Below, one piece after another: positions 12,449-30,898 of a stretch of 64,000 nucleotides of DNA; positions within the stretch are counted from its first letter, which is position 1; every line of letters begins with the position of its first letter. The position numbers and the translations under genes were made by a program. Source of the DNA: Jiangella asiatica (lineage in GTDB: Bacteria > Actinomycetota > Actinomycetes > Jiangellales > Jiangellaceae). The stretch spans positions 1-64,000 of the forward strand of contig NZ_SMKZ01000008.1 in NCBI RefSeq assembly GCF_004349065.1. Reading direction: 5' to 3'. Below the pieces are notes generated by a model. That model ran no database searches. It worked only from the letters and a program-made list of their open reading frames with translations, and was not told the DNA's origin.

Positions 12449-12459
12449 CGCCTACTCCG

Positions 12460-12499: not shown

Positions 12500-13648
12500 T
12501 CAGCCTGAAAACATTTCGCCCATTTCGGCATCCGGCCAGGCGCTCTTGAGGCCGCTGCCGGTCAGCACCACAACCGTGTCGTTGGTGGCGGTGTTCGACC
12601 CGGCCAGCCGCCGGAAGCCCGCGACTGCGACGGCACTGGTCGGTTCCACGTAGTGGCCGAGTCGGCCGAGATCACGCAGGGCGGCCGCGATCTCGTGTTC
12701 GGTCACGGTGAGGACGTCGCCGTGGGACTCGCGGATGGCCCGAAGCAGCTGGCCGCCGTACAAGGGACGCACCGCGGCCACGCCCTCGGCGATGGTCGGG
12801 CCGTGGTCGAGCGCGGTGACCTCGTCGCGCCCCGATGACCAGGCAGCGGACAGCGCCGAACGCGTCTGGGCCTGCACGGCGATCAGGCGTGGGAGCCGAT
12901 CGATGGAGCCGCCTGATCGCAGCGCCCGGAAGGCGTGTGCGAGTGCCAGGACCAGGCTCCCGTGGCCGGCTGGTACGACGACGACGGCGGGTGCGGCGTG
13001 CCCGAGGTCCTCCCAGAGCTCGAAGCCGAGCGTGGACACGCCGGCGATGAACGCGGGCATCCTGTTGTGACTGGCGTAGAAGGGTGCGCCGTCGGCGGCC
13101 GCCGCGTCGCGCATGGCCGCGGCGCGGTCGCCGCCGATGGGGCGCAGTTCCGCACCGTAGCCGCGGATCTGCGCGAGCTTGCCGGACGAGTTGCTGGCGG
13201 GCACGTAGACGACGCACCGCATGCCGGCCGCCGCGGCGTAGGCCGCGAGGGAGGCGCCCGCGTTGCCCGACGAGTCGTCCATCACCTCGGTGACGCCAAC
13301 GTGGTGCAGGAGCGACACGACAACGGCCGAGCCGCGGTCCTTGTAACTCCCGGTGGGCAGTGCGTACTCCGCCTTGAGCAGCGCATCGGCGCCGTCGATG
13401 CGGACCGGCACGAGGGGAGTGCGGGCCTCGCCCAGCCGGACCCGCCCCGCGGCGGGCACCCGGGGGAGTGCAGCGGCGTAGCGCCAGGGACCGGTCTCGA
13501 GCGTGTCCACGTGCTCGCTGGTGAGAGGGGCGGGCGGGGCGAGTTCCAACAGCCCTCCGCAGATGCACGACACCACAAGGCGCTCGTGTTCGTATCGGGC
13601 GCCGCACACAGTGCACGCCACCGGCGGGCTGGTCGCAGCCGGGCTCAT
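12500..13648 (-). CDS. Threonine-synthase-like PLP enzyme with zinc ribbon
   Basis: A 382-residue fold-type II PLP enzyme. The N-terminus has a four-cysteine zinc ribbon (Cys12, Cys15, Cys28, Cys30: CTVCG and CICGG), as in actinobacterial/plant-type threonine synthases. The probable Schiff-base lysine is Lys103 in TGSYKDRGS, followed by DSSGNAGASLAAYAA. The C-terminal VVLTGSGLKSAWP is the phosphate-side loop. Threonine synthases convert phosphohomoserine to threonine, but relatives in catabolic clusters eliminate or replace beta/gamma substituents. This copy sits among transport and oxidase genes and not with hom/thrB, so a catabolic role is more likely. The ATG at 13648 overlaps the stop of the upstream PLP gene (ATGA), so two related PLP enzymes are translationally coupled. 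Confidence 0.87.
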   Translation of the reverse strand: MSPAATSPPVACTVCGARYEHERLVVSCICGGLLELAPPAPLTSEHVDTLETGPWRYAAALPRVPAAGRVRLGEARTPLVPVRIDGADALLKAEYALPTGSYKDRGSAVVVSLLHHVGVTEVMDDSSGNAGASLAAYAAAAGMRCVVYVPASNSSGKLAQIRGYGAELRPIGGDRAAAMRDAAAADGAPFYASHNRMPAFIAGVSTLGFELWEDLGHAAPAVVVVPAGHGSLVLALAHAFRALRSGGSIDRLPRLIAVQAQTRSALSAAWSSGRDEVTALDHGPTIAEGVAAVRPLYGGQLLRAIRESHGDVLTVTEHEIAAALRDLGRLGHYVEPTSAVAVAGFRRLAGSNTATNDTVVVLTGSGLKSAWPDAEMGEMFSG

Positions 13649-14949: not shown

Positions 14950-14987
14950 GTGAGGTCTCCTCTTCAGCGAGGCATAGCGATAATTGA

Positions 14988-15000
14988 CGAATATCGATAA
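14988..15000 (-). promoter_or_regulatory. AT-rich candidate operator, site 2 of 5
   Basis: TTATCGATATTCG on the minus strand, including the palindrome TATCGATA, 39-51 bases upstream of the GTG of the PLP gene at 14949. A second GATAAT lies at 14979-14984. The surrounding DNA is GC-rich, so the AT-rich block stands out. Confidence 0.55.
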
Positions 15001-15039
15001 TCATGGTCGAGCGCGCAGGCGTCGCGGCCCGTCGGTCGG

Positions 15040-16077
15040 TCAGGTCACATCGGGAAAATGACAGGCGGTCCAGTGCCGGGTCGCGAGCTCGACCAACGGC
15101 GGCTCCACCTCGGCGCAGACCTCCTGTGCCTTCCAGCACCGGGTGCGGAACCGGCAGCCGCTGGGCGGTGACATCGGGCTGGGAACGTCGCCGTGGAGAA
15201 TGATCTGCTCGCGGTGTTGCTCCACCACCGGGTCGGGGACCGGCACCGCGGACAACAAGGCCTGGGTGTAGGGATGCAGCGCGTGGGCGTACAGGTCGTC
15301 GCGGTCGGCCAGCTCGACGATCTTGCCGAGGTACATGACGGCGACGCGGTCGCTGACGTGCCGGACGACGGCGAGGTCGTGCGCGATGAACAGGAAGGCG
15401 AGGCCGTACGCCGCGCGGAGGTCGGCGAGCAGGTTCACCACCTGCGCCTGGATCGAGACGTCCAGAGCCGAGATCGGCTCGTCGGCCACGATGACTTCGG
15501 GCTCTACCGCCAGCGCACGTGCGATGCCGATGCGCTGGCGCTGGCCGCCGGAGAACTCGTGCGGATAGCGCGAGACCGATGCCGGGTCCAGGCCCACTGT
15601 CCGCAGCAGCTCGGCGACCCGGACCGGCCGCTCGTCCTTCGCCACCAGCCGGTGTACGCCCAGCGGCTCGCCGACGAGCTGCCCGATGGTCATGCGCGGG
15701 TTCAGCGACGCGAACGGATCCTGAAAGATCATCTGCACGCGCCGGCGAACCCGGCGCAATTCCGTCCCTCGCAGCCGCGAGATGTCGGTGCCGTCGAGCC
15801 GGATCGACCCGGCAGTAGGCCGTTCCAGCCGCGCCACCGCCCTGCCGGTGGTGGACTTCCCGCAGCCGGACTCGCCGACCAGGCCGAGCACCTCGCCGCG
15901 GTGGAGGCTGAAGCTCAGGCCGTCGACGGCGCGCACCGCCGCGACCTGGTGGTCGAACAGGATGCCGGCCCGAACCGGGAAGTGCACCTGGAGATCGGTC
16001 ACCTCGATCAGGGGCGGCTGGGGCGCCGGCGTCGCGGCGCTCGAATGGGGAGTCGCGTGGGCCGAGGTCTGCGTCAT
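15040..16077 (-). CDS. Peptide-type ABC importer ATPase (DppF-like), system B
   Basis: A 345-residue nucleotide-binding subunit. An N-terminal extension of ~25 residues precedes [13 protein letters not shown]. Walker A is [13 protein letters not shown], the Q-loop is [13 protein letters not shown], the signature is FSGGQRQR, Walker B is VIVADEPIS and the switch is IAHDLAVV. The C-terminal Opp-type cysteine region is [16 protein letters not shown]. The ATG at 16077 overlaps the stop of the DppD-like gene (ATGA). With its partner it would power the permeases encoded about 6 kb downstream on the same strand. No other permeases lie between, which supports one importer with a split gene order. Confidence 0.94.
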
Positions 16078-17099
16078 GGTTGCCCCGCCGTCGTCGTGGC
16101 GTCGGCGAGCCAGCCATCCGGCTGGGTCGCCCAGCAGCGCACTTCGTGGCCGTCTTCGGCGATGGTGTGCCGTGGCGCCGACACCAGCCCGGGCTCGCTC
16201 GCGCCACAGATCTCCTGGCGATGACCGCACCGTGGCTCGAATCGGCAGCCGGCGGCGCCGTCGGCTAGGTCGGGTGGAGCGCCGTCGATCGGGGTGAGCC
16301 GGTCGGCACGCGGATGATCCAGGCGGGGCAGCGACCGCAGCAGCCCCCAGGTGTACGGCATGCGCGGGTTCGCGAAGAGCTCCTGTGTGGTCGCCTTCTC
16401 GACGATCCGGCCGCCGTACATGACGTGGATGCGCTGCGTCATGCCGGCGACGACACCGAGGTCGTGCGTGATGAGGATGAGCGCTGTCCCCAGGTCGCTC
16501 GCCAGGGCGCGCAGCAGCGAGAGGATCTGCGCCTGGATGGTGACGTCCAGCGCCGTGGTGGGTTCGTCGGCGATGATCAGCTTCGGCTGGCACGACAGGG
16601 CCATGGCGATAACGATGCGCTGACGCATCCCGCCGGACAGCTGGTGCGCGAACGCGTCCACTCGGGTCGTAGGGCTTGGAATTCCGACCATCTCCAGCAG
16701 CTCGATGACCCGGAGCCGAGCCCGGCGCCTGCTGAGGTGGAGCTTGCACTCGAGCAGCTCGGCGATCTGGCGGCCGACCGGCATGATCGGGTTCAGGCTC
16801 GTCATCGGATCCTGGAAGATCATGGCGACCTCGCGCCCCCGGATCCGCCGGATCTCGCGCTCGCCGAGAGCGAGAAGATCGCGGCCGTCGAGACGGATGG
16901 AGCCGCCTGCGATCCGGGCCGATGCGGGCAGCAGCCGCAGCAGTGACAGCGCGGTGACCGACTTTCCGCAGCCGGACTCGCCGACCAGGCCGAGCGCCTC
17001 GCCGCGGCTCACCGTGAAGCTCACCCCGTCGACAGCGGCGACGGTGCCGTTCTTGCCGGTGAACTCGGTCCTGAGGTCCGATACCTCGAGCAATGCCAT
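16074..17099 (-). CDS. Peptide-type ABC importer ATPase (DppD-like), system B
   Basis: 341 residues. Walker [14 protein letters not shown] starts at about residue 38, the Q-loop is [13 protein letters not shown], the signature is LSGGMRQR, Walker B is [12 protein letters not shown] and the switch is ITHDLGVV. The C-terminal cysteine motif is [15 protein letters not shown]. The ATG at 17099 has GGAGGTCGCC directly before it and lies 20 bases after the aldehyde dehydrogenase stop. Unlike systems A and C, system B keeps the two ATPases as separate genes. Confidence 0.94.
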
Positions 17100-17119
17100 G
17101 GCGACCTCCGCCCGTTCGG

Positions 17120-18598
17120 CTATGCGAGATTGACCGTCACGTTCTTGGTCTGCGTGTAAGCCTCGAGCATGCCCGCCAAGGAGTATTCGCGTCCGAAGCC
17201 GCTCTGCTTGTAGCCGCCGAAGGACTGTCCCGGGAAGGCGCCGCCGCCGTGGTTGATCTGAATCCAGCCGGCGTCGATGCGGTGGGCGGCCCGGATGGCC
17301 GCCGCGGTGTCCCGGCTCCAGATATAGGCCGCGAGCCCGAAATGCGTGTCGTTGGCCAGAGCGACCACCTCGTCCTCGTCGCGCCATGGTAGCGCCACGA
17401 GCACTGGCCCGAAGATCTCTTCCCTGGCCACCCGCCAGGCGGGACCCGTGCCGGCGAAGATCGTCGGCACCGCGAAGTACCCCTCGGCGAGCGGCCCGGT
17501 CGTCGGCGGCAGTCCGCCGGTCACCAGGCGGGCGCCCGGCTGAACCATCGCGTCGGTGACGTAAGCGCAGATACGGTCGAACTGGTCCGGCGTGGTGACC
17601 GCACCGACGTCTGTCGTCTCGTCGAACGGGTCGCCCACCACCAGGGCCTCGAGGCTGGCGACCACACGCGCGAGGAAGGAGTCGAACACCGACTCGTGGA
17701 TCAGCAGACGAGATCCCGCCGCGCATGACTGGCCCTGCCGGCTGAACCTCATCGCCGCCACGACGCCCGCGGCCGTGCGGTCGTCGTCGGCGTCGGGGAA
17801 GACGATGCTCGGGCTCTTCCCGCCCAGCTCCAGTGTCGCCGGCACGATGCGCTCGGCCAGCTCGCGAAGCACGACGCGCGCCGTACTTACGCCGCCGGTG
17901 AGACTGACCTTGCGCACTGCCGGGTGTGCGACGAGGGCCGCGCCCGCCTCGTCGCCGGTCCCCGTCACCACGCCCAGAACTCCAGCCGGCAGATGTGCCG
18001 CCAGGATCCTCGCCACGGCCAGGACCGCGAGCGGTGCCTCGAGCGCTGGCTTGAGGACAACGGCGTTGCCGGCGGCGAGTGCCGGGGCGAGTTTGAGAAC
18101 GCTCAGGGAGACCGGCGCGTTCCACGGCACGATGGCCGCGACCACACCCCACGGTTCGCGTCTGGTGTAGCTGAGCATCGACCCCGGCAGCGGTACGGTG
18201 TCACCGGCGACTTGGCTGGCCACGCCGCCGAAGTACCGAAGGAGACCGACGGCGTTGGCGACCTCCGGCCGGGCCTGCGTGCGTATGGCCATGCCGGTCT
18301 CGAGGGCGAGCAGCCGTGCCACGTCTTCCAACTGTGATTCCAGGTCATCAGCAGCTCGCGTCAGCGCCGGACCGCGTTCACTCCAATGCGCCGCCGCCCA
18401 TCCCGGTGCTGCGTCGGCGGCCGCCGTCACGGCGTGGTCGACGTCCCGCTCGTCGGCGAGAGGGACCGTCCCGGCGATGGCGCCGCGGTGCGCAGGGTTC
18501 TCCACGAACGCCGTCCGGCCGGTCGTGCCCGGCGTCCAGTCGCCGCCGACGAGCAGGAGCGCGTCGGCCGCGACGTGGTCGGGTCCGGGCACCGACAT
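17120..18598 (-). CDS. NAD(P)-dependent aldehyde dehydrogenase
   Basis: A 492-residue ALDH-superfamily enzyme that oxidises an aldehyde to a carboxylate with NAD(P). Key features are the Asn in IVPWNAPV (about 160), general base Glu257 in TLELGGKSP, catalytic Cys292 in [11 protein letters not shown], and the EEIFGPVL motif. The C-terminal [25 protein letters not shown] is typical of betaine/amino-aldehyde-type members. The ATG at 18598 overlaps the stop of the GNAT gene (ATGA). In this cluster it would clear an aldehyde made by one of the flavin amine oxidases or PLP enzymes; that role is inferred from context. Confidence 0.93.
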
Positions 18599-19194
18599 CA
18601 GTCGTGGTCCGCTGTCCAGGCGTTGCCGTACGAACCGTCCGGGAAGGCCATGTGGAAGTGCAGGGCGCCGTTCGGGCCGGGATCCTTGCGCGCGTCGTAG
18701 ATCTCCACGGTCGGCATTGACCGCCAGAACGGTTCGGCGCCCGGCGATCTCGGGTCGGTGTGGAGGTAGATGACGTCGTAGCCGCCCTCGTTGGCGACGA
18801 AGTCCCGCGCGTTGTTGACCAGCGCGCGGGCGAGGCCGTGGCGGCGATAGTCCGGGTCGATGTAGACGCGGAACAACTGCGCGGTTCGCTCCGGGTGGTA
18901 CCTCGCCGCCAGCCACTCCGGATGGGGCGGCGACCATGGCCCACCTGGCCGGACGGCGGACGTGCCGGCCACGGCTCCAGTCGCCTGGTCGATGGCGACG
19001 ACCAGGCAGTACCGCGACTGCTTGATGTAGGTCTCTTCGAGTCGCTCCAGGTCCCAATGGATGTCCGGCCTGTACCCGCCGAGATCCTCGTCGAGGACCC
19101 GGCGGATCACCTTCCCGGCTCCGTCCAGGTCCTCGACCGTGGCCCGCCTGATGAGGAATCCGTCGACTGTCCTGGTTTCCGCTGACCGACTCAC
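18598..19194 (-). CDS. GNAT-family N-acetyltransferase
   Basis: 198 residues with the acetyl-CoA-binding core of GNAT enzymes: LFRVYIDPDYRRHGLARALVNNAR contains the beta4 strand and the R/Q-x-x-G-x-A pyrophosphate loop (RRHGLA). It would transfer an acetyl group to an amine. The GTG at 19194 is preceded by AAGGAGG, and candidate operator site 3 lies just upstream, so this is the first gene of a long unit running to 15040. It might acetylate the substrate or an intermediate, or confer tolerance to it. No substrate can be read from the sequence. The stop overlaps the aldehyde dehydrogenase start. Confidence 0.85.
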   Translation of the reverse strand: MSRSAETRTVDGFLIRRATVEDLDGAGKVIRRVLDEDLGGYRPDIHWDLERLEETYIKQSRYCLVVAIDQATGAVAGTSAVRPGGPWSPPHPEWLAARYHPERTAQLFRVYIDPDYRRHGLARALVNNARDFVANEGGYDVIYLHTDPRSPGAEPFWRSMPTVEIYDARKDPGPNGALHFHMAFPDGSYGNAWTADHD

Positions 19195-19214
19195 GTAGCC
19201 TCCTTGAGCCGCGA

Positions 19215-19227
19215 CGATTATTGATAA
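19215..19227 (-). promoter_or_regulatory. AT-rich candidate operator, site 3 of 5
   Basis: TTATCAATAATCG on the minus strand, 21-33 bases before the GNAT start, inside the longer AT block TTATTGATAACTATC (19219-19233). It matches the site pattern shared through system B and is placed where a repressor would block the promoter. Confidence 0.55.
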
Positions 19228-19306
19228 CTATCTATAGTCCACGCGATTCGACAACGTCAAGGCTTCGGAGGGCGGAATCGGGACGCTGAGCCGGGCGGCG
19301 CTCGGC

Positions 19307-20410
19307 TCAGCGTCCCTTGCCGCTGTCGGGGCCAGGTGACCTGAAGACCGCCGCGAGCGCCTCCAGCGTGTGCTCGACACCCTCGTCGCGCAGGCTGAGC
19401 AGGGTGCCGTTGCGGACCCGCTCCTGACGCACCAGCTCGGCGGCGCGCAGGGCCGCGACGTGGTGATGCACCGTCGGCTGCGAGAGGCCGACGAGCCGGA
19501 CGAGCTCGGGTCCGGTGAGGGGCCCACGGCTGAGCAGGCGGAGGATTTGCAGGCGGGCGGGCACGGACATCACCTTGAGCGCGTAGACCAGCGAGGCGTC
19601 GACCGGCGCCGCGTCGAACCTCTGGGCCATGGTGGACTCGATGCCGTACACCACCAGCGCCTCCCCTGTGGACTCGTCCATTCGGACCGAGGCGAACGGG
19701 TGCAGGAAAACCGACGGCGCGAGCGTGAGCCGCCGCAACGGCCAGTCGGTGGAGATCGTGAAGCCGCCGCTGAGGTGTTCGACGGCCTTGGACGTCGGCA
19801 GGACGTCGAGCGTGTCCTCGGCACGCTTCACGGCCTCGGTCAACGGCTGTGTCAGCTGGTCGATCTGCTGGGCGAACACCGACTCGTTGTAGCGCGTCAG
19901 CACCTCCGCGAGCTCGTGCCGGGCGCGTGCGGGGTCCTCCAGGATCCGCCTGGCGCGCTGCTTGCGCACCGTGGGCAGGCCGCGCACGGCCGTGGTGACC
20001 GCGTTCGGTCGATCGCTGTCGAGCGCCCGGCGGAAGAGCTCGAGCCGGTCCGCCGGGGTGTCGCCGGGCGAATCGAGCATGTGCATGGCCAGGACGCGCG
20101 GATCGCTGGCGCGGATGCCCTCGATGAGCTGCTCCGGTCCGGCATCGTCGGGCAGCTCCGGCACCAGCCAGAGCGCGCCGATGCCCATCGACGTGTCGTG
20201 ACCTTGGAAATAGAAGCGGCCCGCCTGAGCTACCTGCGCGGAGAGGGACTCCTTGGCAGCTGCCGCCCAGCCGCGCAACGACGGATACGTCCGCGGGCTG
20301 TACAGCACCCGGAAGCTGATCAGGAGGTCGTAGCAGACCGAGTTGTGCACCCGGGCCAGTCCGTCGAAGGGATCGTGGGTCGCGCTCCGACCCTGCCGCG
20401 CGCGTCTCAT
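19307..20410 (-). CDS. Large ArsR-type winged-helix regulator
   Basis: A 367-residue protein with a long N-terminal region of ~255 residues that I cannot name, then an ArsR-type winged-helix domain near the C-terminus. The helix-turn-helix reads LQILRLLSRGPLTGPELVRL followed by VGLSQPTVHHHVAALRAAELV. Ordinary ArsR regulators are ~100-120 residues, so this is an unusually large form whose N-terminal part may sense the substrate. The ATG at 20410 is the likely start; a GTG at 20419 directly after the upstream stop is possible. Being the only regulator inside system B, it is the best candidate to bind the five shared AT-rich sites, one of which lies just upstream of it. Confidence 0.82.
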   Translation of the reverse strand: MRRARQGRSATHDPFDGLARVHNSVCYDLLISFRVLYSPRTYPSLRGWAAAAKESLSAQVAQAGRFYFQGHDTSMGIGALWLVPELPDDAGPEQLIEGIRASDPRVLAMHMLDSPGDTPADRLELFRRALDSDRPNAVTTAVRGLPTVRKQRARRILEDPARARHELAEVLTRYNESVFAQQIDQLTQPLTEAVKRAEDTLDVLPTSKAVEHLSGGFTISTDWPLRRLTLAPSVFLHPFASVRMDESTGEALVVYGIESTMAQRFDAAPVDASLVYALKVMSVPARLQILRLLSRGPLTGPELVRLVGLSQPTVHHHVAALRAAELVRQERVRNGTLLSLRDEGVEHTLEALAAVFRSPGPDSGKGR

Positions 20411-20419
20411 GTCCACCAC

Positions 20420-22027
20420 TCACTCGTATCGGTTATCGACGATTGTCACGTTACTCGGCGAACGCACTGGCGAGGACGATCTCGGCCCGGCGAGGTCGTG
20501 TCGTCGGAGTGCCCGGCCGGGCCGGTTCCCCGTGTCGGCGGCATCGGCCCAGACGATCTCCCCGTTGACGACGACCGCCTCGACTCCCCCTGCCAGTTGC
20601 CGCGGCGCGTCGTACGTCGCGTAGTCGGCCAGTGCGTTGAGGTCGAGGACCACGAGGTCAGCAGCTTTACCAGACCGGATGACCCCGCGACCGGCGAGAT
20701 CGAAGCGGCGCGCCGGCCTTCCCGTCATCGCATGGACGGCCTGCTCCAGCGACAGGCCGCCGGGCGATCTGGTGCAGGCGATGAGGTACCGCGGGAAGGA
20801 GCCCCAGCCGCGTGGATGCGGTCGCTGGCCGACCAGGATCGCGTCACTGCAGACCATGCCGGCGGGATGGCGCATGCACGCAGCGACACTGTCATCGGAA
20901 ACGGTGCTGCCGACGTAGCCGACCGCCAGGTCGTTGTCCGCGAGCATGGCCGTGAGGACGTCGCCCACCGTGCCGCCGAGGCTACCGGCAGCCTGTGCGA
21001 GGCTCGCTCCGGCGAGCGAGGCGTAGGTGTCCTTGGCGAAGCCGCTGAGCACGTACTCGTCGGCGACGGCATCGAGCCGGTCGGAGAGGTGTCGCGCGAT
21101 CCGTGCGCGCGACCTGCTGTCGTGCAGCCGGTCCATGAGCGCCGCCGGCCCGCCGACCAGGCTCCACGGTGGCACGTGCATCAGCATCATGCTGCTCGCC
21201 ACCGCATAGGGGTAGACGTCGAAGGTGACGTCGACACCCCGGTCGAGAGCTTCGTCGATGACAGGCAGTGCGGCCGCCGCGCGTAGATGCGAGATGTGCA
21301 CGCGCGCGCCGGTCGCCGCGCCGACCTCGACCATCTCGCGCACCGCTTCGACGATGCCCAGTGCCCGGCTCCGGGTGTGCGCGACGAGGACGCTGCCATG
21401 GGCCGCGACGACGCGGCCGAGCTCCAGCAGCTCGGCCGTGGTGGCGATGCTCTGGGGGAAGTAGTCAAGGCCGAGACCGACGCCGACCGCGCCCTGGTTG
21501 AGGCACGCCTCGGCGAGGTCCGCGGCGTGCTGGAGCTGCTCGGAATCCAGGGCGCGATCCGTCCACCCGGCCACGGCGATCCGGATCGCCCCGTAGGGCG
21601 CGAGCGAGGAGACGTTTTGGGCAGTGGCGCGGTCGTACTGGTCGAGGAACTCCAGGAACGTGGCGCCCTGCCCCCGGTAGCGCCCGTTGAGAGGCAGGAG
21701 ATAGTCGGCCTGTTCTCGCAGGCGCTGGGCGGCCAGCGGCGCATAGGAGAGGCCGTCCTGACCGAGGATCTCGGTGGTGACGCCTTGGGCGAGCTTGGCG
21801 GCCACGGCGCCCTGGTCCAGGAGGGCTGCCTCGACATGTGCATGAGTGTCGATGAATCCAGGGCTGACGACCAGGCCCGTCGCGTCCAGCGTGCGGCCCG
21901 CGCTGGCTCCGGTCAGGTCGCCGACCGCGACGATCGTCGCAGCGCTGACACCGACGTCGACACGCGCCGGGGGTGCGCCGGTGCCGTCGACCACCGTCGC
22001 TCCGGAGATCACCAGGTCCAGGTCCAT
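20420..22027 (-). CDS. N-acyl-D-amino-acid deacylase-like amidohydrolase
   Basis: A 535-residue amidohydrolase-superfamily enzyme of the D-aminoacylase type. The N-terminal DLVISGATVVDGTG and the metal-binding HxH (His62, His64 in GFIDTHAHVEAAL) are clear. Metal-site histidines are likely in VAHTRSR and RVHISHLRA. The C-terminal beta-domain contains GVIRSGKAADLVVLDL. Such enzymes cut the amide of N-acyl-D-amino acids or related N-acyl compounds. The ATG at 22027 is chosen over a GTG nine bases earlier. The tail after PGRALR is about 25 residues longer than expected and contains candidate operator site 4. It is divergent from the covalent-flavin oxidase gene. Confidence 0.88.
   Translation of the reverse strand: MDLDLVISGATVVDGTGAPPARVDVGVSAATIVAVGDLTGASAGRTLDATGLVVSPGFIDTHAHVEAALLDQGAVAAKLAQGVTTEILGQDGLSYAPLAAQRLREQADYLLPLNGRYRGQGATFLEFLDQYDRATAQNVSSLAPYGAIRIAVAGWTDRALDSEQLQHAADLAEACLNQGAVGVGLGLDYFPQSIATTAELLELGRVVAAHGSVLVAHTRSRALGIVEAVREMVEVGAATGARVHISHLRAAAALPVIDEALDRGVDVTFDVYPYAVASSMMLMHVPPWSLVGGPAALMDRLHDSRSRARIARHLSDRLDAVADEYVLSGFAKDTYASLAGASLAQAAGSLGGTVGDVLTAMLADNDLAVGYVGSTVSDDSVAACMRHPAGMVCSDAILVGQRPHPRGWGSFPRYLIACTRSPGGLSLEQAVHAMTGRPARRFDLAGRGVIRSGKAADLVVLDLNALADYATYDAPRQLAGGVEAVVVNGEIVWADAADTGNRPGRALRRHDLAGPRSSSPVRSPSNVTIVDNRYE
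20433..20445 (+). promoter_or_regulatory. AT-rich candidate operator, site 4 of 5
   Basis: TTATCGACGATTG lies within the last codons of the deacylase gene and 23-35 bases before the ArsR-type regulator start. It is placed to allow autoregulation of that regulator. Confidence 0.45.
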
Positions 22028-22052
22028 AGCGCACACCCATCGTTATAGACAT

Positions 22053-22065
22053 GTGTCGATGATTG
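22053..22065 (+). promoter_or_regulatory. AT-rich candidate operator, site 5 of 5
   Basis: GTGTCGATGATTG sits in the 77-base gap between the divergent deacylase and oxidase genes, with further AT-rich sequence (ATCGTTATAGAC) beside it. It could control both directions. Confidence 0.5.
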
Positions 22066-22104
22066 ATGGTAGACAAAGCTCGTCGATGCTCACGAGGAGG
22101 CCCC

Positions 22105-23343
22105 ATGTACGACTGCGTGGTGGTCGGCGCCGGCGCGATGGGATCGTCCGTAGCCTGGCACCTCGCTCGCCGGGGGCGCGAGGTCGCGGTGCTGGACCGG
22201 TTCGAGGCAGGCCACGCGCGGGGAAGCTCTCACGGCAGCACCCGGATCTTCAGGCTCGGCTATCCGCAGGCCGACTATCTGGAGCTGGCTCGTGAGTCCT
22301 TGCGCTGGTGGGAAGAGCTGGAGGCCGAGTCAGGAACCCGGCTCCTGGAGCTCACGGGCGCCGTCGAACACGGCCGGGAGTACATCATGCGGCCGATCCA
22401 GGGCGCTCTGAAGGCGTCAGGCCTCCCAGTCAGCCGGCTCTCGCCGGGCGAGGCGGCCGAGCGATGGCCCGGCCTGGCCTACGAGCCGTATGTGCTCCAC
22501 CAGCCCGACGCCGGGCGTATTCTCGCCGACCGCACGGTCCAGGTGCTTCACCGTCGTGCGGTGGCACACGGCGCGGAGCTGCGGCATGCCTCGCCGGTGC
22601 GTCGCATCGACGTGGCGGGCGACCGCGCGACGGTGATCACGGACGACGCTACGTTGATTGCCAGGCGCGTGGTCGTTGCCGCCGGCTCGTGGTCGCAGGA
22701 CCTGCTGGGCAACGTGCTGAACCTGCCTCGCATGGTGGTGACCCAGGAGCAGCCGGCGCATTTCGCGCCTTCGGAGGCCGCCGACTGGCCCAGCTTCCTG
22801 CACCATGGTGACCCGGGCCGTCCGAGCCGGCACATGTACGGCGCGTATGGCCTGGTCAGCCCAGGTGAGGGAGTCAAGGTAGGCCTGCACGGAACCGGCA
22901 TCCGCTGCCATCCCGACCAGCGCACGTTCCGGCCCGATCCCCGCGGCGCGGACATTCTTCGGTCCTACGTCCGCGAGTGGGTCCCGGGCGTCGACCCGGA
23001 CTCCGCAGAGTTCATCAGCTGCCTGTACACGACCACGGACAACGAGGACTTCGTCATCGATCGTCGAGGCCCGCTGGTGGTGGTGGCCGGATTCTCCGGT
23101 CACGGCTTCAAGTTCACCCCCGCGATCGGTCATCTCGTGGCCGGCGCGTTGCTGGACGGCGCCGCGTTGCCGGAGCGGTTCGCGATCGACCATCGCTTGC
23201 CCATCGAACGACCCAGGCGCGCTCAGCTGGAGACGTTGCTCGCGGCCCTGGGCGCGGGTCCGCCGGGGATCGTGGAACCGGCGACGCTTCACACGCAGCT
23301 GGCGACCGCCAGGAAATCTCCCACGAGCTGCGGACCCCGCTGA
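22105..23343 (+). CDS. Monomeric sarcosine oxidase / N-methyl-amino-acid oxidase-like flavoprotein
   Basis: A 412-residue FAD enzyme. It has the dinucleotide motif VVVGAGAMGSSVAWHLARRG and the family motif GSSHGSTRIFR (residues 40-50), which in monomeric sarcosine oxidase contacts flavin. Cys306 in ISCLYTTTDNEDFVIDR lies where that family attaches FAD covalently, followed by VAGFSGHGFKFTPAIG. Such enzymes oxidise sarcosine, N-methyl amino acids or pipecolate with oxygen. The ATG at 22105 has GAGGAGG. The last ~13 residues are not family sequence: they read through, out of frame, into a histidine kinase relic starting near 23304. The native C-terminus was therefore probably replaced. It is divergent from the deacylase gene. 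Confidence 0.9.
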   Translation: MYDCVVVGAGAMGSSVAWHLARRGREVAVLDRFEAGHARGSSHGSTRIFRLGYPQADYLELARESLRWWEELEAESGTRLLELTGAVEHGREYIMRPIQGALKASGLPVSRLSPGEAAERWPGLAYEPYVLHQPDAGRILADRTVQVLHRRAVAHGAELRHASPVRRIDVAGDRATVITDDATLIARRVVVAAGSWSQDLLGNVLNLPRMVVTQEQPAHFAPSEAADWPSFLHHGDPGRPSRHMYGAYGLVSPGEGVKVGLHGTGIRCHPDQRTFRPDPRGADILRSYVREWVPGVDPDSAEFISCLYTTTDNEDFVIDRRGPLVVVAGFSGHGFKFTPAIGHLVAGALLDGAALPERFAIDHRLPIERPRRAQLETLLAALGAGPPGIVEPATLHTQLATARKSPTSCGPR

Positions 23344-23595
23344 CATCAACCGGACTCTGATCGAGGTGGCCCTTGACGACCCGCGGACGCCGGAACCGAT
23401 GCACCGTCTCGGCGCGCCGGACCCGGGTCGCGATCCGCACCGACACGCGGGCGGCCCGCGTCGAGAAGGGTCCCGGGTCTGCTGGGCGGGTCCGGGCTGG
23501 GGTTGTCGATCGGCGCTCGGTCACTCACGCGCATGGCGGCGAAGTGCGGGCGAGCGCACGTGACGGGCGGCGGTCCGCGGGTCGAGGTGCGGTTC
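23304..23595 (+). pseudogene. Histidine kinase relic
   Basis: In a frame shifted from the oxidase, 23304-23357 reads DRQEISHELRTPLTSTGL, a clear H-box of a sensor kinase, followed by a stop. At 23485-23511 another frame reads GGSGLGLSI, the glycine box of the kinase ATPase domain. At 23520-23552 a further frame shift gives VTHAHGGEVRA, the expected next segment. Only ~130 bases separate H-box and G-box remnants, where ~450 would be normal. The gene is thus internally deleted, frame-shifted and missing its sensor half, which is replaced by the oxidase gene. No intact response regulator is adjacent. Three consecutive conserved motifs in order make chance unlikely. Confidence 0.72.
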
Positions 23596-24297
23596 TCAGA
23601 TGCCCAGGTTGGCAGCGGGCGCGCCGAGTGAGGTCGGGCTGAAGCCCGTGATCAGGGAGTCGATGACGCGTCGCCGGCTCTGCTCGATCTGCTCGGCGCT
23701 GATCTGCCGCGCAGCGTCGGCGTCGCCGGCCAGGATGGCGTCGTAGAGCGCGAGGTGCTCGTGCATCTGCTCGCTGCTGGTGTCGCGCATCGTGAGGCTG
23801 AGGAAGAACAGCCGCTGCATCTCCTCCAGCAGGGTCCGGATCGAGCGCGCGAGCCGCAGGTTGCCGGCCGCGACGGCGAGCCGCACGTGGAACTCCCGGT
23901 TGTCGACGATGAACCGCTCGTAGCTGGCCGGATCGGTCTGGTCGTACTCGGCGTGGGCGAGGTCGTGCAGCGCCTCGATGGAGGCACGTGATGCCCGGGC
24001 CGCCGCGAGCTCGCAGGCGGCGGGCTCGAGCAGTAGCCGCAGTTCGAACACCTCGTTGACGTCGGTGATCTTGAGGTCGGTGACGCGGTAGCCCTTCCGC
24101 GGGCGGACCTCGACGAAGCCGTCCTGGACCAGCCGGCCCAGCGCCCCGCGGACCGGTGTGCGGCCCAGTTCGAAGTCCTCGGCCAGTTGCGCCTCACGCA
24201 GCTCCGAGCCCGGTGCCAGCGCACACGTGAGAATCGCACGCTTCAGACGCTCGTAGGCGACGTCCGTCGCTGTGGCCGCGGCGGCACCTTCGGCCAT
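23596..24297 (-). CDS. GntR-family regulator (FadR/FCD subgroup)
   Basis: A 233-residue regulator. An N-terminal winged helix (AYERLKRAILTCALAPGSEL, then EAQLAEDFELGRTPVRGALGRL) is followed by the FCD effector domain. The FCD part has FELRLLLEPAACELAA, a metal/ligand-type pattern FIVDNREFHVRLAVAAGN and a C-terminal EHLALYDAILAGDADAARQ. FCD members typically sense organic acids or amino-acid derivatives. The ATG at 24297 is preferred over a TTG nine bases upstream. The gene is divergent from system C, and the gap carries a perfect GTGATGCATCAC palindrome plus a second related site. It is therefore the likely repressor of system C and of itself. Confidence 0.9.
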   Translation of the reverse strand: MAEGAAAATATDVAYERLKRAILTCALAPGSELREAQLAEDFELGRTPVRGALGRLVQDGFVEVRPRKGYRVTDLKITDVNEVFELRLLLEPAACELAAARASRASIEALHDLAHAEYDQTDPASYERFIVDNREFHVRLAVAAGNLRLARSIRTLLEEMQRLFFLSLTMRDTSSEQMHEHLALYDAILAGDADAARQISAEQIEQSRRRVIDSLITGFSPTSLGAPAANLGI

Positions 24298-24338
24298 GTG
24301 TGTCAACCGCGTTACCTCTCCTCGCAGCTCTTGCCACG

Positions 24339-24374
24339 GTGATGCATCACTCGTAGGTTACCTGACACATCACA
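24339..24374. promoter_or_regulatory. Tandem operator pair between GntR gene and system C
   Basis: GTGATGCATCAC (24339-24350, perfect 12-base palindrome) and TGACACATCACA (24363-24374), 24 bases start to start. They lie 42 bases from the GntR start and 17 bases before the leader ORF. The same arrangement lies upstream of the CDF gene at 7158-7194. Confidence 0.62.
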
Positions 24375-24390: not shown

Positions 24391-24468
24391 ATGCCCGTCG
24401 ATCCGAAGCTGGTGCACCGCGATGCTCCACCCTTTGCTGCAGTTCGACGCCAGGCTACTGGATGGTGA
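24391..24468 (+). CDS. Short leader reading frame of system C (25 residues)
   Basis: ATG 24391 follows a very good ribosome binding site (GGAAGGAG, 24378-24385) and encodes MPVDPKLVHRDAPPF and ten more residues. It ends in a TGA at 24466-24468 that overlaps the start region of the ATPase gene (ATG 24462, GTG 24465). The ATPase itself has no good binding site, so its translation may depend on ribosomes that finish this short frame. No family was recognised. It could be a coupling or attenuating leader, or the surviving N-terminus of a lost gene. Confidence 0.5.
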   Translation: MPVDPKLVHRDAPPFAAVRRQATGW

Positions 24469-26531
24469 CCTTTGCGAGCGGTGTCGCGGATCTCCTGGCG
24501 ATCCGCGAATTGACGGTCACCTTCCGTACCGGTGGACGCGATGTGTACGCCGTCCGCGGGGTGGACCTGTCCGTCGCCGAGGGTGAGACGCTCGCCGTCG
24601 TCGGGGAGTCCGGGTCGGGCAAGAGCGTGACGATGATGGCGGCGCTCGGCCTGCTGCCCGACAACGCCGAGGTGTCCGGGTCGATCCGGCTGGGTGATCG
24701 CGAACTGCTCGCGATGGAGGAGCGGGCGCTGCGCTCGGTGCGTGGCGCCGAGATCGGCGTCGTCTTCCAGGACCCGATGTCGTCGCTGAATCCCGTCCAC
24801 ACGGTCAGCCGGCAGATCGCCGAGGCGATTCGCGCCCATTCGGACGTCTCGCGCGCCGCCGCGCATGCCCGGGCGGTCGAGTTGCTGGGCGAGGTCGGCA
24901 TCCCGGACGCGAAGGGGCGAGCCGACGACTACCCGCACCAGTTCTCCGGCGGCATGCGGCAGCGAGTCATGATCGCGATGGCGCTGGCTTGCGGTCCGCG
25001 CGTGCTGGTCGCCGACGAGCCGACGACGGCGCTCGACGTCACCGTCCAGGCGCAGATCGTGGACCTGGTCGACCGGATTCGCGCGGAGCGGGGCATGTCG
25101 GTCATCTGGATCAGCCACGACCTGGGTGTCGTGGCGCAGATCGCCGACCGGGTCACCGTCATGTATGCCGGACGCGTGATCGAGCAGGGCTCGTGCGCCG
25201 ACCTGTTCGACGCGGCCGTCCACCCCTACACGGCCCGGCTGCTGCGGGCCATGCCGCGCCTTGACGCCGTAGCCGGAGCCGAGCTAGAGGTCATCCCCGG
25301 CAGCCTGCCTGACCCGGAAGCACAGCCCGAGGGCTGTGTCTTCGCCCCGCGCTGTGACCACACCCTGGACCAGTGTGCCGCCGCCCGTCCAGCCCTGCTG
25401 CCGCTCGTGGCGGGCGGCAGGCACGCGGTGGCGTGCCACCGGGCCGGCGATCGGCTCACGCACAGCCAGCCGCCGGGCCTCGTCGGGGGCGCGCCCGCGC
25501 ACGAACGATCCGCCGGCCAGATCGTCGTCGCGCTGGACGATCTGCGGGTTCACTACTGGGGGCGGGGCTCGTGGCGCCGAGCGGCAGCGCCGGTGCGCGC
25601 CGTCGACGGCGTCACCCTCGGCCTCGAGCGCGGACGGACGCTCGGGCTGGTCGGCGAGAGCGGCTCGGGCAAGTCGACGCTGGCCAGGGCGCTGCTGGGG
25701 CTGGAGAAGACCAGCGGCGGCACCGTGGCGTTCGGTGGCCAGGTGCTGCACACGATGAGCGCCGCCGGCCTGCGAAAGCTGCGCTGCACCGCACAGTTGG
25801 TCTTCCAGGACCCCTCGGCGTCGATGAACCCGGCGCTGCGTGTCGAGGACGTAGTCAGCGAGCCGCTGCGGATCAACCGCCGCGGCTCGGTGGCCGAGCA
25901 ACGCGCTCGGGCGGGCGAGCTGTTGGAGATCGTGGAACTCCCACGCGAGCTGGGTCGCCGCTTCCCGCACCAGCTCAGCGGCGGGCAGCGACAGCGGGTC
26001 GCCATCGCCCGCGCGCTCGCCCTGGACCCTCAGGTCCTCGTCTGCGACGAGCCGGTCTCGGCGCTCGACGTCTCGGTGCAGGCACAGATCATCACATTGC
26101 TGTCGAGACTGCAGGCGGAACTGGGGCTCTCCCTCCTGGTCATCTCGCACGACCTGGCCGTCATCCGGACCATCGCGCACCGGGTGGCCGTCATGTACCT
26201 GGGCCAGATCGTCGAGCTCGGCAGCCGTGACGACGTTTTCGGCGGGCCGCGCCACCCTTACACTCGCGGTCTGCTCGACGCTGTCCCAATTCCAGATCCG
26301 CACCGACGCTCCCGGCCGGTACCCCTGGCCGGTGACCCCCCGAGCCCGGTCGCACCACCACCGGGCTGCCGGTTCCACGAACGGTGCGCTTTCGCCCGAC
26401 CCGGACTCTGCGACACCACTCCGCCACCCCTGGAGCAGCAGCGCCCCGGCCACTGGACTGCGTGCCATCTCGCCGACGAGATCGCCGCCTCGTCCACCGC
26501 CCCCGATCCGGTCCGCTCAGCGACGGGCTGA
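24462..26531 (+). CDS. Fused double ATPase of peptide-type ABC importer, system C
   Basis: 689 residues with two complete nucleotide-binding domains. Domain 1 has Walker A GESGSGKSVT (about 48), Q-loop VVFQDPMSSLNPV, signature FSGGMRQR, Walker [13 protein letters not shown] and a cysteine region CVFAPRCDHTLDQC. Domain 2 has Walker A GESGSGKSTLAR (about 398), Q-loop LVFQDPSASMNPA, signature LSGGQRQR, Walker B VLVCDEPVSALD and a final cysteine region CRFHERCAFARPGLC. The start is either ATG 24462 or GTG 24465; both overlap the stop of the short leader frame and lack their own ribosome binding site. It powers the permeases at 28274-30132. The fusion parallels system A but was not compared in detail. 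Confidence 0.93.
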   Translation: MVTFASGVADLLAIRELTVTFRTGGRDVYAVRGVDLSVAEGETLAVVGESGSGKSVTMMAALGLLPDNAEVSGSIRLGDRELLAMEERALRSVRGAEIGVVFQDPMSSLNPVHTVSRQIAEAIRAHSDVSRAAAHARAVELLGEVGIPDAKGRADDYPHQFSGGMRQRVMIAMALACGPRVLVADEPTTALDVTVQAQIVDLVDRIRAERGMSVIWISHDLGVVAQIADRVTVMYAGRVIEQGSCADLFDAAVHPYTARLLRAMPRLDAVAGAELEVIPGSLPDPEAQPEGCVFAPRCDHTLDQCAAARPALLPLVAGGRHAVACHRAGDRLTHSQPPGLVGGAPAHERSAGQIVVALDDLRVHYWGRGSWRRAAAPVRAVDGVTLGLERGRTLGLVGESGSGKSTLARALLGLEKTSGGTVAFGGQVLHTMSAAGLRKLRCTAQLVFQDPSASMNPALRVEDVVSEPLRINRRGSVAEQRARAGELLEIVELPRELGRRFPHQLSGGQRQRVAIARALALDPQVLVCDEPVSALDVSVQAQIITLLSRLQAELGLSLLVISHDLAVIRTIAHRVAVMYLGQIVELGSRDDVFGGPRHPYTRGLLDAVPIPDPHRRSRPVPLAGDPPSPVAPPPGCRFHERCAFARPGLCDTTPPPLEQQRPGHWTACHLADEIAASSTAPDPVRSATG

Positions 26532-26571
26532 CCGCGCTGACGCCACTGATCGCCACCCGGAGGTCCAGAAG

Positions 26572-28233
26572 ATGTTCGAACGTCGCATCACCAGGACGGC
26601 AGTGCCGGCGCTCGTCCTCGTCGTCCTGATCCTCGGCGCCTGCGGTTCCAATGGAGGGACCGAGGACACCGGCTCGTCCGACGCCGCCGGCGCCGCGACC
26701 GCGGAGACCCTGCGCATCGGGATCATGTCCGAGGAGGGAAACCTGACGCCGCACACCTACGCGACCGGATTCCCGGGCCTGAACCTCACCATGCTCAGTT
26801 ACGACTCACTCATGCAAGCCGACGAGAACGGGGAGCCCCAGCCCTGGCTCGCCGAAACGGTCGAGAGCTCACCGGACGGCTTGACCTACACGCTCGGCCT
26901 CGCCGACGGCGTCACCTGGCACGATGGCGAGGCACTCACGGCCGAGGACGTCGTCTTCAGCGTCGACTACTACAAGGCCGGCCCGCCTGGCCGGTTCGCC
27001 ACCGCGATGGCCAACGTCTCGCAGGCCGTTGCGCAGGACGAGTCCACGGTCGTCCTCACCCTGGGCGTGCCGGACCCGTCGTTCGAGATCCGCGTCCTCG
27101 CCGACGTGCCGATCCTGGCCGAGCACGTCTGGTCTGGCATCACCGAGCCGGACCTCGCACCGTTCGACGAGACCACGAACATCGGCTCCGGGCCATACCG
27201 CCTGGTGGAGTCCGACCCGGGCGTGAGCTACTCCTTCGAGGCACACCCCGAGTACTTCCGCGGCGAGCCCAAGGTCGATGAGCTCGTCGTGGTCCAGTTC
27301 GCCGACGAGGCCGGCGCCACCGCGGCGCTGCGGTCCGGTGAGATCGACACGATGATGCGGTCGATCTCGCCCGAGCAGATCGACGTCCTGCGCGGCGCCG
27401 GGAGCCTCGATGTCGTCGAGGCGCCCGAGTACACGACCACCCTGCTGGTCTTCAACACCGCGGTCGCGCCGTTCGACCAGGCCGAGTTTCGCCGGGCCGT
27501 CGCTCTCGCCGTCGACCGGCAGCGGCTCGTCGACGACGTGTTCCTCGGTGCCGCGGTGGTCGGCAACGCCGGCTGGGTGCACCCGAGCTCGCAGTGGTAC
27601 GACGAGTCCGTCGAGACGGTGTATGACCCGGAGGCCGCCGCCCGGCTGTTGGACGACATCGGCCTCACCGACTCCGATTCCGACGGCATCCGCGAGCTCG
27701 ACGGCGCCTCACTGTCCTTCGAGCTACTGGTCGCATCGAACAATGCGCTGAGAATGCGCCTGGCCGAGCTGATCGGCGAGCAACTGGGGGAGGTGGGCAT
27801 CGGGGTCGAGGTCAGCTCGGTCGAGATGCAGACCCTCGACGACGCGGTCTGGCCGGGCTACGACGTCGCACAGGGCCGCAACTACGAGATGTCCATGTGG
27901 GGCTGGTCGGCCTCCAGCCAGGCCGACATCGGCCAGATGGCGTCGCTGGTCTCCAGCGACCCGGCCATCGGCAACCTCAACGTCACGGGCTACGCCGACC
28001 CGGAGACCGACGCACTCGCCGTCGAGCTGGACACCGAACTGGACCCGACGGCCCGGGCCGAGGTTGCCGACCAACTGCAGCAGCGGATCGCCGAGGAGGT
28101 CCCGTTCGTCTCGCTGCTGCACCCGAACGGCGCGTACGGCTACAACCCGGACGTGTTCGGCGACTGGGTCTCGATCACCGGTTCCGGCCCGATGACGAAG
28201 CTGTCGTTCATCCCGGACGACGGCCAGCCCTGA
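26572..28233 (+). CDS. Peptide-type ABC substrate-binding lipoprotein, system C
   Basis: A 553-residue family-5 solute-binding protein. The signal peptide ends in the lipobox ILGAC (lipidated Cys24), followed by a Gly/Ser/Asp linker. Lobe motifs include PQPWLAETVESSPDGLTYTL followed by ADGVTWHDGEALTAEDV, and EFRRAVALAVDRQRLVDDV. The ATG at 26572 has GGAGG eight bases before it. A longer open frame begins at 26227 but would overlap the ATPase gene and bury the signal peptide. It lies 40 bases after the ATPase stop and 40 bases before the first permease, an unusual ATPase-first order. Confidence 0.92.
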   Translation: MFERRITRTAVPALVLVVLILGACGSNGGTEDTGSSDAAGAATAETLRIGIMSEEGNLTPHTYATGFPGLNLTMLSYDSLMQADENGEPQPWLAETVESSPDGLTYTLGLADGVTWHDGEALTAEDVVFSVDYYKAGPPGRFATAMANVSQAVAQDESTVVLTLGVPDPSFEIRVLADVPILAEHVWSGITEPDLAPFDETTNIGSGPYRLVESDPGVSYSFEAHPEYFRGEPKVDELVVVQFADEAGATAALRSGEIDTMMRSISPEQIDVLRGAGSLDVVEAPEYTTTLLVFNTAVAPFDQAEFRRAVALAVDRQRLVDDVFLGAAVVGNAGWVHPSSQWYDESVETVYDPEAAARLLDDIGLTDSDSDGIRELDGASLSFELLVASNNALRMRLAELIGEQLGEVGIGVEVSSVEMQTLDDAVWPGYDVAQGRNYEMSMWGWSASSQADIGQMASLVSSDPAIGNLNVTGYADPETDALAVELDTELDPTARAEVADQLQQRIAEEVPFVSLLHPNGAYGYNPDVFGDWVSITGSGPMTKLSFIPDDGQP

Positions 28234-28273
28234 CGCACGTCGTGCTCACCACGGACGGAAGGAGACGGCGACG

Positions 28274-29248
28274 ATGAACGCGCGACGCCTCGGCCTGGCC
28301 CGCCTCGGCCAGTACGCCATCGTGCTCGTCGTCGCCGTCACCCTGAACTTCGCGCTGCCACGGCTGATGCCCGGTTCGCCGCTGGCGCTCATCGCCGGCG
28401 TCGAGGCGGGGGAGATGACGCCGGAGGAGCGTGCGGCGGTCACCGCCGACGCCGGGCTGGACGAGCCGCTGGTCGTCCAGTACCTCACCTACTGGAAGAG
28501 CATCCTCACGCTCGACTTCGGCTACTCCTTCCGCCAGGGCACGCCGATCGAGGAACTCGTGCTGGGCCGGCTGCCCTGGACCCTGCTGCTCACGCTCACC
28601 GCGCTGGCGGTGTCCGGCACCGTCGGCATCGCACTAGGGGCCTTCTCCGCGTGGCGGCGGGGAAGCAGGTGGGACGTCGGCTCGCTCAGCTTCATGATCG
28701 CGCTGGAGTCGACGCCGCAGTTCTGGCTCGGCATGCTCTTCATCGCACTGTTCTCGGTGTCGCTGGGCTGGCTACCGTCGTTCGGCGCGACGACGGCCGG
28801 CGCGGACCTGTCCGGCCTGGCGTGGGTCGCCGATGTGGCCGAGCACGCCGCGCTGCCAGTGCTGACGCTGTCCATCCTCAGCATCCCGGCGGTGTACATG
28901 GCGATGCGGTACTCGACACTGTCGGTACTGGGCGAGGACTACATCCGTACCGCCCAGGCCAAGGGGCTGCGGCCGCGTGCGGTGATGATGCACCACGTCG
29001 TGCGCACGGCGCTGCTACCGGTCACCACCGTCCTGGCGCTGCGGCTGGGCTGGGCGTTCGGCGGCACCGTCGTCATCGAGACCGTGTTCTCGTATCCAGG
29101 CCTGGGCCGGCTGATGTACGACGCGGTCTCCGCCCGCGACTACCCGGTCATGCAGGGCACCTTCCTGGTCTTCACGATCGCCGTTCTGCTGGCCAACCTG
29201 CTCGCCGACTCGCTGTACCCCCGCCTGGACCCGAGGACCCGCGTATGA
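28274..29248 (+). CDS. ABC peptide-type permease (DppB-like), system C
   Basis: 324 residues. N-terminal helix (GQYAIVLVVAVTLNFALPRL), PGSPL loop, periplasmic AGLDEPLVVQYLTYWKSIL, cytoplasmic EAA loop DYIRTAQAKGLRPRAVMMHH, then ETVFSYPGLGRLMYDAV and a final helix ending in LDPRTRV. GGAAGGAG at 28258-28265 precedes the ATG. The stop overlaps the next permease by ATGA. It forms the membrane channel with the DppC-like partner. Confidence 0.93.
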   Translation: MNARRLGLARLGQYAIVLVVAVTLNFALPRLMPGSPLALIAGVEAGEMTPEERAAVTADAGLDEPLVVQYLTYWKSILTLDFGYSFRQGTPIEELVLGRLPWTLLLTLTALAVSGTVGIALGAFSAWRRGSRWDVGSLSFMIALESTPQFWLGMLFIALFSVSLGWLPSFGATTAGADLSGLAWVADVAEHAALPVLTLSILSIPAVYMAMRYSTLSVLGEDYIRTAQAKGLRPRAVMMHHVVRTALLPVTTVLALRLGWAFGGTVVIETVFSYPGLGRLMYDAVSARDYPVMQGTFLVFTIAVLLANLLADSLYPRLDPRTRV

Positions 29249-30132
29249 CCGCTCGCGTGATCACCGAGTCCGCGCCGGAGCCGCAGATCGTGTTGCGCCG
29301 CAGCCGGGTGTCCGGCGACCGCACCAGAGTGCTCGGCGTCATCGGGGCCGTCATCGTGCTGGCGCTGGGCACCGTCGCGGTGCTGGCGCCCGTCCTGGCC
29401 CCGTACGACCCCACCGAGCGAGCGGGGACGCCGTTCTCGCCACCGTCGGCGGAGCACCTCCTCGGCACCAACGACGTCGGGCAGGACCTGCTCAGCGAGA
29501 TGATCTACGGCACCCGGGTCTCACTGACCGTCGGCATCGTCGCCGCCGCGGCCGCCATGGTTCTCGGCACCGTGGTGGGGCTGATCGGCGGCTACTTCCC
29601 GCGGCTTGGCGCGGTGGCGATGCGCGGCGTCGACGTCGTGCTGATCCTGCCGTTCCTGCCGCTGCTGATCGTGCTTGCCGCCTACCTCGGGCGCAGCATC
29701 GTCAACACCGTCATCATCATCGCGATCCTCATCTGGGCGCCGACCGCCCGGGTGATCCGCTCGCAGGTGCTGTCGCTGGCCAAACGCGACTACATCGTCG
29801 CCGCCCGCTCTATGGGCGCCGGGCACGGCTACGTCATCCGGCGCCACGTCCTGCCCAAGACCCTCCTGCTCGCCATCGGCGAATTCGTCGCCGCCACCAG
29901 CGGAGCGATCCTGCTCGAGTCGTCCCTCAGCTTCCTCGGCCTCGGCGACCCGCTGCAGGAGAGCTGGGGGTCGACGCTCTATTGGGCCCAGGCACGCGGC
30001 GCGTTCCTCACGCCGGCCTGGAAGTGGTGGGTGCTCCCGCCGGGCCTGCTCATCATGCTCTCCGCCCTCGGATTCGCCCTGCTCGGCTACGCCCTCGAGC
30101 AGCGCATCAACCCACGCCTGCGCCGCTCGTGA
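29245..30132 (+). CDS. ABC peptide-type permease (DppC-like), system C
   Basis: 295 residues. The ATG at 29245 overlaps the preceding stop, which fixes the start. A cytoplasmic N-terminus is followed by helix 1 (VLGVIGAVIVLALGTVAVLA), the motif EHLLGTNDVGQDLLSEMIYG (about 72-91), the EAA loop AARSMGAGHGYVIRRHVLPK and the terminal LSFLGLGDPLQESWGSTLYW. The PIG-L-fold gene follows 25 bases later with its own binding site, so it is likely on the same message. Confidence 0.93.
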   Translation: MTARVITESAPEPQIVLRRSRVSGDRTRVLGVIGAVIVLALGTVAVLAPVLAPYDPTERAGTPFSPPSAEHLLGTNDVGQDLLSEMIYGTRVSLTVGIVAAAAAMVLGTVVGLIGGYFPRLGAVAMRGVDVVLILPFLPLLIVLAAYLGRSIVNTVIIIAILIWAPTARVIRSQVLSLAKRDYIVAARSMGAGHGYVIRRHVLPKTLLLAIGEFVAATSGAILLESSLSFLGLGDPLQESWGSTLYWAQARGAFLTPAWKWWVLPPGLLIMLSALGFALLGYALEQRINPRLRRS

Positions 30133-30157
30133 CGGCACCGACAGAAGGGACACGCCC

Positions 30158-30898
30158 ATGACCAACGTCCTCATGCTCGCGAGCTACGGTCTGGAGATCG
30201 TTGAATGCGGCGGCGCCATCGCCAAGGCGGTCGCCGCCGGCGAGACGGTCAACGCGGCCGTCCTCATGTGCCGTGAGGAGAGCAAGCCGCAGGTGTCCCG
30301 CGCCGCGGACATCCTGGGGGTCAGCGGCGTGGACTTCCTCGACGTGTCCTTCGGCGAGGTGGACCTCACCTCCGCGACCAAGGTCAAGGTCGTCGAGCTG
30401 ATCCGGCGGACCAAGCCCGACGTCGTCATCATGCAGGACCCGCAGCACGCCCAGCACGACCTCGACCCCGACCGCCGCGTCATCGCCATTCTCTACGCCG
30501 AGGCGCTCGCCGTCGCCGGCCGCGACTGGCGCATCGATGAGTGCGGCGGCCACGACCCGCACCCGATCCCGACCATCTACTACATGACCCCCGAGCACCC
30601 GAACTGCGTGGTCGAGATCGGCGACGTGCTGGACAAGAAGCTGACGGCGCTGCAGGAGCTTTCGTCGCAGAACACCTTCAGCGCACAGCACTGGCTCGCG
30701 CACACCACGCCCGAGGTGCTGAAGTCCGTCATCCCGGCCTGGACCGACGGCGAGCTGGAGACGCTCGGGTCGGAGGGGCAGCGGGCGTTCTTCACTGCGC
30801 TGGCGCTGACGAACGGCCTCGCCTCGCACTCGGGCGCGGTCCTCGGCGAGCCTTACCGGCGTGAGGGCAGCTTCGTGATGGACCGGCTGACGAACTGA
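30158..30898 (+). CDS. PIG-L/LmbE-fold protein lacking the zinc ligands
   Basis: 246 residues. The overall pattern (VLMLASYGLEIVECGGAIAK, a Rossmann-like alternation, VELIRRTKPDVVIMQDP) fits PIG-L de-N-acetylases. In active enzymes the first motif is AHPDDE and the second HPDH, together giving His, Asp, His zinc ligands. Here the first motif is ASYGLE and the second DPDR, so every ligand position is changed. Substrate binding without hydrolysis, or a different reaction, is likely. GAAGGGA at 30144-30150 precedes the ATG. As the last gene of system C it may act on, or sense, the imported compound. Confidence 0.8.
   Translation: MTNVLMLASYGLEIVECGGAIAKAVAAGETVNAAVLMCREESKPQVSRAADILGVSGVDFLDVSFGEVDLTSATKVKVVELIRRTKPDVVIMQDPQHAQHDLDPDRRVIAILYAEALAVAGRDWRIDECGGHDPHPIPTIYYMTPEHPNCVVEIGDVLDKKLTALQELSSQNTFSAQHWLAHTTPEVLKSVIPAWTDGELETLGSEGQRAFFTALALTNGLASHSGAVLGEPYRREGSFVMDRLTN

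Follow-up and report, generated by a model that had tools for sequence, protein, structure and literature searches.

In the stretch of Jiangella asiatica DNA analysed here (the window, 64,000 nucleotides), the gene of an FAD-dependent amine oxidase (22105-23343, + strand) runs at its 3' end into letters that recall a sensor histidine kinase. This raises two questions: are these letters the remains of a kinase gene, and how did they come to lie against an oxidase gene? The original prediction read them as a relic marking the border at which an accessory gene cluster, called system B, was inserted into a former two-component locus.

The decayed histidine kinase gene occupies positions 23312-23595 of the window (+ strand, 284 bases), with six frame changes in the best alignment. 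Its N piece (23312-23471, + strand) carries the H box, or phospho-acceptor box, SHELRTPL (23319-23342, + strand), followed, after the loss of one base at about 23343-23344, by INRTLIEVALDDPRTPEPMHRLG. The latter corresponds to the post-H-box helix of one actinobacterial kinase family, and is the strongest stretch of the relic. After a frame change comes a weaker stretch, with ARVEKG as its last letters near 23471, which is not aligned in the same way in the single-kinase test and in the profile search described below. The C piece (23485-23595, + strand) opens downstream of the H box with the G2 box GGSGLGLSI (23485-23511, + strand), continues after a frame change with RSVTHAHGGEVRASARDG (23514-23567), and ends after another with GGPRVEVRF, the last stretch, which extends up to 23595. 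The three motifs on which the prediction had been based (SHELRTPLT, GGSGLGLSI, and HAHGGEVRA) are present on the + strand, in kinase order and in different frames; what the motif list had overlooked is the strongest stretch, INRTLIEVALDDPRTPEPMHRLG.

Much of the gene is missing. In intact relatives, the two pieces are separated by 123-148 residues, mostly 125 (20 best rows), so that about 125 codons, or roughly 375 bases, have been deleted from the interior of the relic. The N and G1 boxes of the ATP-binding domain fall within these codons and are absent from the relic, which excludes a functional kinase and leaves the status of relic unaffected. As the profile similarity to kinases does not extend upstream of 23312, the sensor and HAMP half is gone. 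Compared with the actinobacterial kinases that partner OmpR-type regulators, with their HELRTPLA(I/V)NRTLLEVAL signature, the relic shares the H box, the helix, the G2 box, and the last strand, in this order, but it has no sensor or HAMP region, no open frame, and no adjacent response regulator, and it lacks some 125 codons of the dimerisation and ATP-binding region. We take this kinase family to resemble CutS of Streptomyces; the best NCBIfam models for an intact relative of the relic remain far under their cut-offs (the first reaches 214 of 720 bits). The relic is best explained as what is left, in a form that can no longer be translated, of a histidine kinase gene whose type is paired with an OmpR-like regulator, reduced by the loss of everything upstream of the H box, of the codons from the HisKA helix to the G2 box, and probably of its own 3' end.

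Since every motif is short and each lies in another frame, a chance resemblance in GC-rich DNA deserves consideration, all the more as Pfam offers little: HisKA gives a weak match in one frame (17.3 bits, E 0.005), under its gathering cut-off of 26.9 bits, and the other two frames of the relic have no Pfam match. These matches are weak or absent because each frame holds a small piece. Two tests nevertheless place the relic far above their controls. In a frameshift-aware search with a profile built from 31 kinases, the relic scores 213 over 23312-23574, whereas 25 random stretches of the window, taken from either strand, score 32-71. When the frames are joined, the top scores against intact kinases are 130 for the N piece and 116 for the C piece. 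For 100 shuffles of each, compared with the same 49 kinase frames (distinct members), the maxima are 57 and 61, respectively. Scoring against one kinase at a time, a cruder test, yields 66-120, with six plain shuffles at 40-62, and the weakest of these single-kinase matches are near noise. Similarity is also visible in the DNA itself: by blastn, the H-box part is 80-84% identical over 66-77 bases (E down to 4e-12) to kinase genes of four congeners (G001, G002, G007, and G011) and of the same genome (C77). Chance is, therefore, hardly credible, and the relic of a histidine kinase gene at 23312-23595 is confirmed.

The oxidase gene encodes a protein of 412 residues that belongs to the DAO family (Pfam DAO, E 9.1e-56, a clear match) and is N-methyl-tryptophan-oxidase-like. 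It resembles N-methyl-L-tryptophan oxidase and monomeric sarcosine oxidase, with NF008425 aligned over residues 2-353, but differs from them by about 47 extra C-terminal residues and by scores below both curated cut-offs (245 bits for NF008425, cut-off 257; 213 bits for TIGR01377, cut-off 480). Its homologues end at oxidase residues 351-384, with a median of 365 (102 of 107 loci gave a row), which leaves a non-conserved tail of about 47 residues; the C-terminus is, thus, not the conserved one, as had been predicted. The part of this tail beyond the median homologue end and ahead of the relic (approximately residues 366-402, 23200-23310, + strand) has no Pfam match in any of the six frames, with E values of up to 1 allowed. 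The reading frame then enters the relic in a frame other than that of the kinase and stops at 23341-23343. Between 7 and 10 residues, at most the last 10, are kinase-derived, given that the profile alignment starts at 23312. The previously proposed count of about 13 is a fair estimate of this kinase-derived part, and does not hold for the whole odd tail. The oxidase gene would have lost its own stop codon and now terminates within the scrap, at most 10 codons in, probably the only effect that the relic has. The relic is, in this respect, a warning that the C-terminus of this protein is not native.

The relic forms the last 284 bases of a variable block of 16.4 kb (7206-23595), the system B of the original prediction, which is delimited by homology with congeners; it lies inside this block, not outside. 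On the left, the block is anchored by a CzcD-like cation-efflux gene (5842-7107, - strand; named from its sequence, not from a family search), and on the right by a GntR/FadR-type regulator gene (23596-24306, - strand), with congener homology beginning at its stop codon. Beyond the latter lie the genes of an oligopeptide-type ABC transporter, with its binding protein and permeases, and of a PIG-L-type deacetylase (24462-30898, + strand). From the GntR gene to 30898, synteny is found in five congeners (G004, G006, G007, G009, and G010), the main alignment pieces being 83-90% identical in DNA, and the efflux gene keeps its side relative to this GntR gene in all five. At the right border, homology starts directly at the stop codon of GntR (23596) in G006, G007, and G009, and, by BLAST, at 23641 in G004 and G010; at the left border, it ends at 7204-7206 in the congeners examined (G006, G007, and G010). 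The predicted link between the relic and the border of the accessory cluster is borne out by the resumption of homology at the GntR stop codon, and the relic marks this border precisely.

What lies between the two anchors varies from one congener to the next. The spacer is reduced to 73 bp in G007, and consists of 1.26 kb of other sequence in G006, where a reading by eye points to apparent transporter-permease debris and a PIN/antitoxin-like pair (L132, 8872-10129). In G004, G009, and G010, it spans about 10 kb and encodes a distant oxidase (29% identity), a permease, transporter ATPases, a binding protein, and a threonine-synthase-like protein. The clusters of the different spacers (7206-23595 here; L133, L135, and L136) are not the same, yet they are alike in function, several of their proteins being 28-38% identical. 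A peptide-type transporter, an amine oxidase, and a threonine-synthase-like enzyme are the functions in common. It is possible, albeit rather unlikely, that several species share the borders of a spacer, from the efflux operator to the stop codon of GntR, in which unrelated clusters of like function are repeatedly exchanged, and that the scrap was left behind by an earlier occupant. A search of the two borders for direct or inverted repeats gave one direct repeat of 14 bases, at 7277 and 23576, which was considered as an attachment site and rejected: 30 random pairs of window stretches gave repeats of up to 15 bases and three others of 13, and one copy of the repeat lies inside a permease open reading frame. 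Only one pair of the 30, though, exceeded 14 bases. Rfam, at gathering thresholds, detects nothing in the window.

Was there ever a two-component system at this place? Spelled out, the account of the original prediction would be that a native kinase and regulator pair, convergent to the GntR gene, was lost through insertion of the oxidase cluster into its kinase gene. The orientation of the relic, convergent with GntR, agrees with this account, as does the tail of the oxidase adjoining the relic. The last frame of the C piece is, moreover, open beyond the border, up to a stop codon at 23629-23631, which is what a short overlap between convergent genes would produce. The site in other species, however, speaks against it. 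Eight kinases and seven regulators of this family, used as queries with E values of up to 0.01 allowed, gave no match in the stretches read at the site of the five congeners that keep both anchors, nor in the 16-20 kb surrounding the efflux homologue of six others; the efflux proteins of these six are only 55-66% identical and may not represent the same place. Within 5 kb to the left of GntR in the congeners, the best match has an E value of 0.18, and a scan for H boxes came back empty at the congener site stretches and beside the efflux homologue of the six others. The predicted kinase at the syntenic place in relatives was, thus, looked for and not found, which counts against the prediction. 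In the window, the kinase and regulator queries recover the relic and one separate pair. Debris of a regulator is also lacking near the relic: tblastn with the seven regulators gave no match of any strength within 21-38 kb of the window, its sole strong match being an intact pair at 46.5-48.5 kb and the rest having E values of 0.017 or worse. Finally, the relic tends to group away from the more widespread kinase of the genus. A former two-component locus at the GntR border is, on these comparisons, not supported, and the account by which it was destroyed in place appears improbable.

The relatives of the relic do not designate one source. In a FastTree phylogeny, it groups with L013, L165, and L020, the last from the same genome (support 0.96, inner nodes 0.26-0.31), apart from the genus's more widespread kinase, which is present in five of its genomes; with 85 columns, a long branch leading to the relic, and poorly supported inner nodes, this tree is too short to rely on. 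Plain scoring, contrary to this grouping, gives the genus kinase of G007 as the best match. Across 33 kinases, 37-50 of 85 aligned positions are identical to the relic, the top counts being 50, 48, 48, and 48. The window itself also holds, intact, a kinase gene from the same broad family together with its response-regulator gene (46498-48536, - strand), adjoining genes common to the kinase loci of several congeners (66-76% DNA identity). This kinase (46498-48009, - strand) and its regulator were rejected as the source of the relic: the two pieces score 77 and 94 against it, and their sum is lower than that of each of the 12 best rows.

The reading that we prefer, with a probability of roughly 0.72, is that the relic, most likely without function, is the old scar of a gene, now a pseudogene, that entered or once occupied a site of DNA exchange. 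The relic, the borders of the block, and a congener site in which no kinase was found are what is seen directly; from these, we infer that the kinase gene reached this place through DNA exchange and is not left over from an ancestral two-component locus. A 16.4-kb accessory block fills the spacer between the efflux and GntR genes, where the contents of the congeners differ, with the relic at its right border. A kinase that only this lineage acquired and then lost may also be compatible with the absence in congeners. Neither the same junction nor an intact kinase beside the oxidase was found in the genomes compared, and the kinase gene may have been imported or may have been an earlier resident.

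In a narrower form of the exchange-scar reading, the relic travelled with the oxidase cluster, from a donor that already held a kinase pseudogene alongside. The two are indeed physically joined within the variable block, and the position of the relic inside this block is in keeping with such a common journey. A kinase is, however, not a regular neighbour of the oxidase, since only two of 80 named oxidase loci have one (with H and G2 motifs) in the flanks fetched, about 7 kb away. These 80 homologues are only 44-56% identical to the oxidase, so that no true donor is among their loci. The neighbouring deacylase proved no better guide to a donor, with homologues in 16 other genomes of 393 (E 1e-90) that are at most 43% identical. 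Within about 1.5 kb, these 16 loci contain neither the oxidase nor a kinase, and a response regulator is present at one of them (L230); among plasmids, the deacylase search returned 154 records, all below 60% identity. Joint transfer is, therefore, a doubtful refinement of the exchange-scar reading.

Pseudogene debris at the borders of accessory islands is a known kind of feature. Like such debris, the relic is truncated, frameshifted, and situated at the edge of non-homologous content, the sole unusual point being the oxidase that runs into it. No function is plausible for the relic, which, on its own, matters little: it is an ordinary genome scar, one of many cases in which a gene has decayed where an accessory block ends. 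Still, it points to a site where congeners hold different, functionally alike catabolic clusters, apparently under common GntR control.

Part of this site is duplicated elsewhere in the genome. A second GntR copy (80% protein identity) lies at 93166-94047 of C22 (L216, L138), beside a 77-base scrap of the 3' end of the efflux gene (93.6%). A weak kinase-like match is found about 3.4 kb from this GntR copy, with best E values of 5e-6 in one search and 9e-5 in another, on the opposite strand relative to the relic; it is a point against the exchange-scar reading.

Next to both anchors lies a long two-part motif, GTGATRCATCAC followed by CTGAMACATCAC, which occurs exactly twice in the window (7158-7193 and 24339-24373) and in none of 100 shuffles. 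One site lies upstream of the efflux gene and the other in the divergent promoter of the GntR and transporter genes. Its first half, GTGATRCATCAC, is also found in congener loci that hold the efflux, GntR, or transporter genes, and in 31 of 216 loci overall. The GTGATRCATCAC-CTGAMACATCAC motif is a likely operator of the GntR regulator, tying the efflux gene to the transporter operon.
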